Position numbers and translations under genes: made by a program. Shown here in pieces: positions 13,842-23,688 of a stretch of DNA of 42,563 nt. Below the pieces are notes generated by a model that saw only the letters and a program-made list of their open reading frames with translations, was not told the origin of the DNA and made no database searches. Source of the stretch: Candidatus Woesearchaeota archaeon. GTDB taxonomy: Archaea; Nanobdellota; Nanobdellia; SCGC-AAA011-G17; GW2011-AR17. The stretch's first letter is position 1, and every line of letters begins with the position of its first letter. The stretch spans positions 1 through 42,563 of the forward strand of contig JACRKH010000064.1 of assembly GCA_016235495.1 (NCBI GenBank), written 5' to 3'.

Positions 13842-16697
13842 ATGTTTGATTCAGCAATCTGGACAGAAAAGTATAGGCCGCAAAAATTCTCAGAAATCAA
13901 AGGGCAGATAAAGATTGTAGAAAGAATCAAGGCTTTTGTTGAGCAAAAGAATATGCCCCACATCATGCTTGCAGGGCCTGCAGGAGTAGGCAAGTCAAGT
14001 ATCGCACTAGTCATCGCAAAAGAGCTCTTTGGCCCAGAATGGAAAAACAGTTTTCTCGAATTAAACGCGTCGGACGAGCGTGGCATTGATGTGGTAAGAA
14101 ACACAATTAAAGAATTCGCAAAAACAAAAGCAATGGGCAATGTTCCATTTAAAATAATTTTCTTAGATGAATGTGACTCATTAACGAAGGAAGCACAGCA
14201 GGCATTAAGAAGAACCATGGAAAATTTCGTTCTCACCACCAGATTTATACTAAGCTGTGTTACTCCAGACACAAAGATTCTTCTTAGTGAAGATAGAGAA
14301 ACAAATATAAAAACAATATTAGAATTAATGGAAAAAGGAACAGGAAATAGTATCACTAATCTTACAAAAGAAAAATCTTCCCTAAAAATAGATAAAATAA
14401 TTGCTGGAGTTGAATTACCTGCATCTTCAATAGGAAAAAAAGTCTTAGCTATAAAAACAAACACCGGAAGAAATATCAAAGTCACAGATGATCACAAACT
14501 CTTAACCGTAGAAGGATGGAAAGAAGCGGGAAAAATAACAAAAGAAGATAAACTTCTTATTTTCCCTGCAACAGAAGGAACCCCTTTAGAAGACAAACAG
14601 GAAAACATCATCAATCTAAAAGAGTTCATTAATTTTTTAGATAAAAGCGAGGAGGATTTAAATCTTAAGAATCTAGTAATTGCGAAAGAATTTAGAAAAT
14701 TAAAATCAATAGATAAGAAAAAAATATTTACCAGAATAAAAGAGCTTAAAGAAATGAATCTTAAGAATAGGGGTCTAACAAAAAGAGAATATGAAGTCTA
14801 TCAAATAATAAAAGAAAACAAAGCTATTTCAAGAAAAGAGCTACAAGATAAACTCAATATTACCCGAATGGGAACAAATTATCTAATAACCCAGCTTAAG
14901 AAAAAAGATATTATTCAAAGAAAAGGAAACCTCAGAAACCAAACTCTCACTTTAACTAACAATAATATTCTAATGCAACTAAGAACTGATATGGATATTA
15001 GAAAACTTATAGAAGAAGAATTTAAACTCTCCATATCCTACATAGCTGTACATAAACAAGAGAAGTTTACAACACATGGCAGAATCGATAGAATTATAGG
15101 AGAATTGAAAAGAAAAGATATCTTAGACATAACATATAACAATATTGAAATAATTGCAGCACTTGCAAGAATTTGTGGGTTTATAACTGGAGACGGGCAC
15201 ATTACCAAAAAAAATGGAAGAGTTTATTTTTCTGGTAATAAGCCAACCCTAGAAGAAGTGAAAAAGGATCTCCAAAAGATAGGCTATAATAATTACTCTA
15301 AAACAGAATCAAAAGAAATTAATAATTATATAGGCAGAAGAGAAATAAAAGGAATTTCTACATATTTCTACCTTGATTCAATAGCCTTTTCCTTATTATT
15401 ACAATACCTTGGTCTTGCAAAAGGAGATAAAGTAATAAGTCCATATAGAGTCCCAGAATTTATTGTAAATGGTACTATCCTAGCCAAAAGAGAATATCTA
15501 CGAGCCTTATTTGGAGCTGACGGAGATAGCCCAAGATGGAAAAACAAAAACTCTCAGCCATTAGCACTAAGACAAAACAAAGCAATTCCTTTCAAAAATG
15601 ACATGGAAGAATTTCTTAAAGAAATTTCTAATATATTAAAAGATTTTAAAGTTGAATCCTATGTAAATATAAGAGATAAAAAAGAATGGAGAAAGAAAGA
15701 TAATTTTCCAGTACTAACATTTGAATTACACATCAAAGCAAATAATTCTAATCTCCATAACTTTTTCACAAGAATAGGTTATTGTTATGAAAAAGAAAAA
15801 ATAAATCTAGCGAGAATAAGTGGAGAATACTTAAAATATAAACAAAATGCGATAGAAAAATGGGGGGAAAAAGGAAAACAAGCCTTAATAATACTTGAGA
15901 CTGAATCAAAAAAGACCAATATTGCAAAAACATTAAACATAAGCACAGATTTTATTAACCATCAAATAAAAGGAAAAATAGTAGGCCTACCCAGAAAGCA
16001 AATTAAAAATTTTAACAGGTGGAAAGAAGAATACATGTATAATGAAATTCTTATTTTAAATGAAATAGAAGAAATTGAAATAATCCAAGAAGATATAGTT
16101 TTAGATATAACTTGCAAAGGTAATCCTAACTTCATTTCAAATGGATTTATTTCCCATAATTGCAACTATTCCAGCAAAATCATTGATCCTATCCAAAGTA
16201 GATGCACAGTATTCAGGTTCAAACCATTAACTGAAGAAGAAATAGAAGAATATGTCAAGAAAATAATTACACAAGAAAACCTCCAAATGGACAACACCAC
16301 AGTAAAGGCTTTGGTGAACATTAGCGGAGGAGATGTAAGAAAAATTACAAATGTACTGCAAAGTTGTGCATCCATTGACAAAAGAATAAATGAAAATCTT
16401 ATTTACTCATTAGTATCCGCAGCAGAACCCCAGGAAATAAAAGAAATTCTTCTCCTCGCAACAGCAAGGCAATTCATCCGAGCAAGATCATTACTCTTAG
16501 ATACGATGCTCAAGCACGGGCTCTCAGGACTAGACATTTTAAAACAAATTCAAAAAGAAACCATTTTACTAAAAGAAGTTCCTGAAGAAAAGAGAATAGA
16601 TTTCATAGACAAGTGTGGAGAAATAGAATTCCGCATGGTAGAGGGAGCAGATGAATTTGTACAACTAGAAGCCCTGCTTGCGTACTATGGAAAATGA
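13842..16697 (+). CDS. rfcS: replication factor C small subunit containing one large intein
   Basis: Extein [22 protein letters not shown]...[10 protein letters not shown]...FLDECDSLT...RFILS / [20 protein letters not shown]; 951-aa ORF. Confidence 0.96.
14256..16160 (+). other. RfcS intein (635 aa) with LAGLIDADG endonuclease and winged-HTH-like modules
   Basis: Starts [15 protein letters not shown], ends [10 protein letters not shown] before extein CNYSSK. Blocks [15 protein letters not shown] and [13 protein letters not shown]. Confidence 0.95.
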
Positions 16698-23295: not shown

Positions 23296-23415
23296 GCCCG
23301 TGTCGCATAATTAGGTAGTGCGGAGGTCTCAAAAACCCTTAGCCCAGAGGAACTAAGGGTCTGAGGAAACCTCTTTCCTTCACCGGATCTCTGGGTTCAA
23401 ATCCCAGCACGGGCG
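23296..23415 (+). tRNA. tRNA-Leu(CAA) with a 34-nt intron at 37/38 (intron 23334..23367)
   Basis: Acceptor GCCCGTG/CACGGGC, D-arm GCA..TGC with GG, anticodon stem GAGGT/ACCTC, spliced loop CTCAAAA, class II variable arm, T-arm CTGGG TTCAAAT CCCAG. Intron BHB: CTCA/TGAG 4-bp helix flanked by 3-nt bulges AAA and GAA, capped by hairpin CCCTTAG/CTAAGGG. No encoded CCA. Confidence 0.82.
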
Positions 23416-23560
23416 ACATAAAATCATTGGAGAATATAAAGCTTACGAAAAAAATAATGGGTGGCTGATGAGACCACCTAAATCACTGGCTAATAACCAG
23501 AGACACACACCCGTATCAAAATAAAACCTAGTCCTCTATAAAAAAGTTTCGCTCAGTAAA

Positions 23561-23668
23561 GCTGGGGTGGCAGAAGCAGGTAAATGCACTTGGCTGATGA
23601 CCAGGAGACATACATCCGTGTGTCACGCGGGTTCAAAGGTGTCTTCACGGAAAGTCCCGTCCCAGGCG
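23561..23668 (+). tRNA. tRNA-like gene or pseudogene; apparent GAT anticodon; possible T-loop intron (23638..23654) and long variable arm
   Basis: Acceptor-like GCTGGGG / CCCAGGC (imperfect), T8, D-arm GCAGAAGCAGGTAAATGC, anticodon stem-loop CTTGG CTGATGA CCAGG, variable hairpin GACA..TGTC, T-arm GCGGG TTCAAA[17 nt]T CCCGT. Confidence 0.42.
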
Positions 23669-23688
23669 CTGAAACGAAAGGAGAAAAA

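Follow-up and report, generated by a model that had tools for sequence, protein, structure and literature searches.

A probable intron-bearing class II tRNA gene with conflicting identity signals and a matched upstream copy in Woesearchaeota-type archaea

We analyzed a 42,563-nucleotide (nt) contig of a Candidatus Woesearchaeota archaeon (JACRKH010000064.1, assembly GCA_016235495.1), here called the window, and in particular one locus on it, which we call B (Table 1). B is most likely a functional, intron-bearing class II transfer RNA (tRNA) gene of a family found across Woesearchaeota-type DPANN archaea. It combines the long variable arm and the discriminator base G73 of a serine tRNA with an isoleucine anticodon, and directly upstream of it lies a truncated copy of B, which we call element E, that matches its own B locus by locus. 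That B is a gene with an intron, and that its isotype signals conflict as a matter of sequence, we hold with high confidence. We have moderate confidence that B would be charged with serine and would decode in a missense manner, and low to moderate confidence that it would be regulated by E. The new parts, beyond the intron, are the isotype conflict and the matched upstream copy, and both were missed by the initial annotation of this locus, which had been made from the sequence alone. Below, G000 is the genome holding the window, other G numbers are related genomes, and L numbers are loci.

A class II tRNA body with an intron in the T-loop

The initial annotation recognized all of the tRNA arms, and it was correct to the base, as every arm can be placed exactly on B, including the anticodon GAT in the loop CTGATGA. 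The variable hairpin that it called class II-like has a conserved 7-bp stem, which sets B apart from the class I, short-variable-loop form of tRNA-Ile(GAU), and the body has 7 acceptor and 5 T-stem pairs (7/5). The imperfection that it saw in the acceptor stem consists of a single non-pair, G4/A69, plus U3-G70; the stem of the G004 orthologue pairs in full. B was not called by ARAGORN, or by Rfam at its cut-off (17.3 bits vs 29), and it scored as a tRNA, with those same 17.3 bits, at a permissive Rfam threshold. Because standard tRNA finders miss B, annotations probably lack most of the family. A box C/D small RNA, for which the TGATGA of the anticodon loop would be the motif, was ruled out, as the motif is CTTAAGA in relatives.

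The insert after TTCAAA in the T-loop is 17 nt long, and taking GGTGTCTTCACGGAAAG out of B regains the TTCAAAT loop and the full cloverleaf. The bulge-helix-bulge (BHB)-like junction proposed for it also holds, in that a relaxed BHB fits: the T-stem pairs, bulge AG^T, UUC/GAA, bulge AA^G and GUG/CAC, with predicted cuts that are symmetrical (AA^G and AG^T). UUC/GAA is paired in 11 of 11 aligned sequences, and the three pairs of the intron helix all show changes on both sides. T-loop introns also occur in tRNA-Ala(TGC) of G000 (L034) and in Lys and Ser tRNAs in the order, while the Asn and Gln tRNAs of G000 have D-loop introns and its Leu(TAA), Ser(GCT), Ser(GGA) and Met genes are, by our own reading, multi-intron. 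Since T-loop introns occur in ordinary tRNAs of G000 and the order, the predicted intron of B is rare but of an already known kind. Two relatives of B carry a second intron, whose removal restores the T stem in G014 and the anticodon loop in L148, so that the multi-intron tRNA suggested earlier describes these relatives and not B itself. With ordinary tRNAs carrying T-loop introns and the extra introns of relatives restoring structure on removal, splicing would be the straightforward reading of the insert in B.

In other genomes of the genus, a DNA search found loci that are 90, 79 and 78% identical to B, and each of them carries the insert in its T-loop. Covariance models, the first built from four sequences and the second from eleven distinct ones, were then searched against the family, order and class, and found further members with the same architecture in each. 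Most of the named records that carry the family are metagenome-assembled genomes of Woesearchaeota, Nanoarchaeia or DPANN archaea. In an alignment of the 11 distinct sequences, which was fitted to the structure so that agreement is somewhat inflated, standard pairing occupies 96.3% of pair cells compared with 33–50% in the slid controls, and changes on both sides occur in 24 of the 33 pairs; no shuffle reached the observed values. A MAFFT alignment of four sequences, in which 7 pairs are altered on both sides, agrees with this.

Discriminator, anticodon and the upstream copy

For the following comparisons we used 42 family loci, picked by eye among the matches because most showed the upstream copy. 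All 42 have G73, and among 20 ordinary class II genes that we read by eye in related genomes, the Leu tRNAs have A73 and the Ser tRNAs G73. A35 is present in 41 of the 42, which would therefore read NUN codons (Phe, Leu, Ile, Val). The automatic anticodon calls were GAA (11 loci), GAT (10), TAA (8), TAT (5), CAA (2), CAG (2) and GAC (1), with three others: AAG in G252c, which keeps A35; ACT in L148, a miscall that stems from an anticodon-loop intron, the locus reading TAA; and CTC in G024b, a true exception. B thus has two traits of a tRNA-Ser, the long variable arm and G73, but its anticodon GAT is not a serine anticodon (NGA or GCU), and these features agree with seryl identity joined to a non-serine anticodon. 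Recognition by seryl-tRNA synthetase is established to be independent of the anticodon, as is stated for the allo-tRNAs of bacteria (PMC7609411). Because the long variable arm and G73 are the seryl signature of the clade and this synthetase ignores the anticodon, B may well be charged with serine. That the anticodon is used is suggested by 41 of 42 loci, which retain the pairs of the anticodon stem, the size of the loop and A35.

G000 also holds an intact, ordinary tRNA-Ile(GAT) at G000:C66:16270 (L015), so the genome can do without B for reading AUC and as a tRNA-Ile. The initial annotation would have given up its proposal if such a gene were found and the locus gave no transcript; the gene accounts for half of this and does not make B dead. 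Proper Ser and Leu tRNAs are present elsewhere in G000, among them a separate multi-intron Leu(TAA) with A73. Family and pattern searches did not find a Ser(TGA) gene in G000, where it may be hidden by introns or gaps.

Nearly every family locus has the same arrangement of E followed by B. When the 140 nt upstream of each locus were compared with each of the 42 B genes, the locus's own B was the best match in 39 of 42, and the mean E/B score was 32.9 within a locus, as opposed to 13.7 across loci and 12.8 when the upstream DNA was shuffled. Thirty-three ordinary tRNAs used as a control had a median upstream score of 14 and no such copy, and the six control scores of at least 20 trace to neighboring full tRNAs or simple sequence. 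The variable loop, though it varies between loci, has a single mismatch between E and B in 162 positions within loci, while the 5′ strand of the variable arm differs by 12% and the anticodon arm by 13–20%. At six loci, which we call type 2, the copy ends just past the anticodon loop, and here it is the anticodon loop that is identical. The ends of the E and B blocks are 103 ± 10 nt apart. Differences between E and B are directional, with A in E for G in B 61 times and the reverse 4 times, and C in E for T in B 30 times and the reverse 8 times; at 77 of 140 mismatches, A in E stands opposite another base in B. This co-varying partial tRNA would amount to a conserved RNA partner, and we know of no counterpart to E in that role.

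Proposed mechanism, alternatives and known parallels

The explanation that we prefer is that B is a functional, spliced class II tRNA that is charged with serine, decodes in a missense manner and is controlled by E, and we assign it as a whole a probability of roughly 0.5. The sequence itself shows the architecture of B, its conservation and covariation, G73 and A35, and the match with E. The pre-tRNA would be transcribed from the TATA-like box at 23537, its T-loop intron would be cut by the archaeal BHB splicing endonuclease, the exons would be ligated, and CCA would be added. Mature B, probably carrying serine, would read Ile codons with its GAU anticodon, and such a missense, allo-tRNA-like tRNA could provide low-level recoding, act under stress, or be toxic. 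E would be a partial tRNA with a promoter of its own, matched to its B locus by locus through the terminal loop and the preceding 5′ strand, and it could control B by competing for the 3′ strand of the variable arm or by acting like a guide on the B gene, which is the weakest step. As a tRNA for recoding or regulation, B may represent a kind new to archaea. We regard as tentative, and on the doubtful side, the further idea of a hitherto undescribed two-RNA DPANN module in which a T-loop-spliced, serine-identity, NUN-reading tRNA would be controlled by an upstream, locus-specific partial-tRNA antitoxin or guide. If B is charged with serine, many Woesearchaeota-type archaea could place serine at Phe, Leu, Ile and Val codons, and the rule of one codon for one amino acid would be broken in this clade, which is unreported in the literature we searched. 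That literature, which covers few subscription papers, also held no report of T-loop introns or isotype-conflicting tRNAs in DPANN archaea.

Several observations weigh against this explanation. Over its whole sequence, spliced B is no nearer to Ser than to Leu tRNAs, and therefore its seryl identity rests on G73 and the variable arm. L113 and L114, which are G73 relatives with no evident upstream copy, read GTC and CCT, so that A35 may be the rule only among loci linked to an E, and the 42 loci were selected by eye for that copy. Many differences in the 5′ strand of the variable arm of E weaken its pairing with the 3′ strand of B (18 pairs broken, 8 improved). The splicing-endonuclease gene was found in four related genomes and was not found in the draft G000 assembly; L138-L141 hold such genes of the clade. 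The copy of B in the window has one broken acceptor pair, and G006 and G018 are truncated relatives in which the 5′ half of B and the DNA between the blocks are gone and an E-like part is fused to the 3′ part of B. These last defects recall the decayed tRNA that the initial annotation considered, but decay fails as a general reading, given the architecture and covariation conserved across the class. A novel tRNA-derived RNA is the best of its three options, and its interpretation is partly supported.

B could instead be a non-decoding tRNA-derived RNA, spliced and perhaps aminoacylated, that serves as an amino-acid donor, as a decoy for tRNA nucleases or as a regulator. With an intact tRNA-Ile(GAT) in the genome B is redundant, the family is patchy (many genomes had no match in the covariance-model search), and truncated versions persist; against these points stands the retention of the anticodon arm and A35 described above, and we consider a non-decoding role somewhat unlikely. 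If B were an ordinary tRNA for a hydrophobic amino acid, with leucyl-tRNA synthetase or another synthetase accepting G73 and decoding being normal, the Leu-like body of many members (e.g., CTGGACTTAAGATCCAG with anticodon TAA) and the equal identity to Leu and Ser tRNAs would fit. The bona fide Leu tRNAs of these genomes, however, all have A73, G000 has its separate Leu(TAA), and a class II body that bears Phe, Ile and Val anticodons does not fit one cognate synthetase, so that normal decoding seems unlikely to us.

The remaining alternatives concern how E and B came to match. The deletions between the blocks in G006 and G018 and the broken acceptor pair in the window would suit a selfish or decaying tandem duplication that is kept similar by recombination and has no function. 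We think this improbable, as at nearly all loci the end of the copy falls shortly after a loop and the block ends are similarly spaced, the terminal loop is matched far better than its flanks, unlike in a conversion tract, and B carries compensatory changes. The abundance of A at mismatched positions of E would also be seen if E were the adenine-rich template of a diversity-generating template/variable repeat pair, copied mutagenically into B, but C/T differences are numerous, and at type 2 loci E and B do not differ in the anticodon loop. Diversity-generating retroelements have adenine-specific differences and an associated reverse transcriptase, a combination that was not found here; because reverse-transcriptase genes are equally common with and without the family (9 of 21 and 9 of 20 genomes), a mechanism driven by reverse transcriptase is unlikely, and we give the template reading very little credence. 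A mechanism guided by clustered regularly interspaced short palindromic repeats (CRISPR) is likewise unlikely because Cas1 was found in just 1 of 21 sampled carrier genomes. Mobile or viral cargo was rejected, the single viral_contigs match being unrelated in sequence.

Functional parallels of B are the bacterial allo-tRNAs and the nematode nev-tRNAs, by analogy. Allo-tRNAs (Mukai et al. 2017, as reviewed in PMC7609411) share with B a long variable arm, seryl identity elements and highly diverse non-serine anticodons, and some degenerate ones are suspected of transposon or toxin-antitoxin links (PMC7609411). They have a 12-bp acceptor branch (8/4 or 9/3) and no intron, whereas B is archaeal and 7/5, contains an intron in the T-loop, and has both A35 and an upstream copy that matches it. 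The nev-tRNAs (PMC4300185) are also class II with an anticodon (Gly CCC, Ile UAU) that disagrees with the accepted amino acid, but they are eukaryotic and leucine-charged, while B has the serine-type G73, an intron and E. With archaeal tRNAs that have noncanonical BHB introns (PMC4090602, PMC4033280), B shares a small BHB-like intron outside the anticodon loop and nothing else, the isotype conflict and E being extra. The CreTA RNA toxin-antitoxin (PMC8501985) resembles the B locus in working only, as two adjacent, locus-matched RNAs of which one is tRNA-related; CreA requires a CRISPR effector (PMC8501985), E has no CRISPR-like repeats, and Cas1 was not found in 20 of 21 sampled carriers, other cas genes not having been searched. 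Split or permuted archaeal tRNAs (PMC3218864) likewise have partial tRNA segments near tRNA sequence, possibly with their own promoters, but B is complete by itself and E has no acceptor strand and no identified trans-splicing partner.

Features and surroundings of the locus

Table 1. Features of the B locus and related loci (positions in the window unless a contig or locus is named)
Feature	Position	Strand	Details
Class II tRNA gene B	23561-23668	+	G1 to G73; anticodon GAT at 23596-23598; CCA not encoded
B acceptor 5′ strand	23561-23567		GCTGGGG; read from sequence
B D stem	23570-72/23585-87		GCA/TGC; read from sequence
B anticodon loop	23594-23600		CTGATGA; stem CTTGG/CCAGG
B variable arm	23607-23624		GACATAC-ATCC-GTGTGTC
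B T stem	23627-31/23656-60		GCGGG/CCCGT
B T-loop 5′ part	23632-37		TTCAAA; T60 = 23655
B T-loop intron, predicted	23638-23654	+	17 nt; between positions 59 and 60; hairpin GTG/CAC; BHB-like junction
B acceptor 3′ strand	23661-67		CCCAGGC; discriminator G73 = 23668
Element E	23459-23514	+	truncated copy of B, directly upstream of B
E first hairpin	23459-23479		in place of acceptor/D region
E anticodon-stem hairpin	23486-23500		
E variable-arm 5′ strand and loop	to 23514		
TATA-like box of E	23435-23440	+	24 nt before E; sequence reading
TATA-like box of B	23537-23542	+	24 nt before B; similar box at about the same distance in most relatives
Class II tRNA A	23296-23415	+	canonical anticodon-loop intron; anticodon CAA by BHB; G73
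Intron-rich tRNA loci of G000, first part	C24:7700-8200 (L050), C13:1-400 (L048), C60:2280-2640 (L173), C46:1-500 (L047)		
Intron-rich tRNA loci of G000, second part	C66:16134 (L015), C6:10985 (L034), C3:3800 (L049)		
Loci with motif or palindrome upstream of E	L103, L102, L105, L106, L124, L125, L131; L080, L082, L098		

tRNA A, for which the upstream comparison used for ordinary tRNAs found no copy of its own, shows the same isotype conflict as B, and so does L032 (G000:C43:6884-6999), a class II tRNA with a canonical intron for which BHB gives CAA, yet with G73. Genes related to these two lie before B twice in G004 and also in G006, where their acceptor stem is degenerate. About 25 nt before the TATA box of E, several families have a CACTGGACA-like motif, and family f3 has the palindrome TTGGTTACCAA upstream of E; both look like putative sites for a regulator of E. 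The leader of B (23547-23556) is complementary to its trailer (23669-23679; TTTCG.TCAG / CTGA..CGAAA), and G005 shows changes there that compensate each other (TTCAA/TTGAA). Downstream of B, G008 (L054) and G015 (L055) encode similar secreted-looking proteins (TEVM..DGEWVEIYN, lamin-tail-like by eye), and the genes that follow B at other loci differ. That the B locus is a leader regulating a downstream gene was ruled out, since downstream genes differ or sit on the other strand.

The tRNA set of G000 is unusually rich in introns (D-loop, T-loop and multiple), affecting Leu(TAA), Ser(GCT), Ser(GGA), Gln(TTG), Asn(GTT), Ala(TGC) and elongator Met, and most of these genes are missed by tRNA finders. 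At L087, L092 and L094 the T-loop intron has the same sequence as that in the tRNA directly upstream, for example CGGGTTCAAAACAAATAAAATT, which is present twice in L087, as if introns were spreading between adjacent tRNA genes. A lone 3′ fragment of a tRNA-Tyr gene, intron tail included, lies at G000:C66:51820-52180 (L176), ~1.1 kb after the full tRNA-Tyr gene. At 13842-16697 in the window, the Replication factor C small subunit gene looks, by eye, to be interrupted by an intein (conserved ends ..LSC V/..SNGFISHNC).
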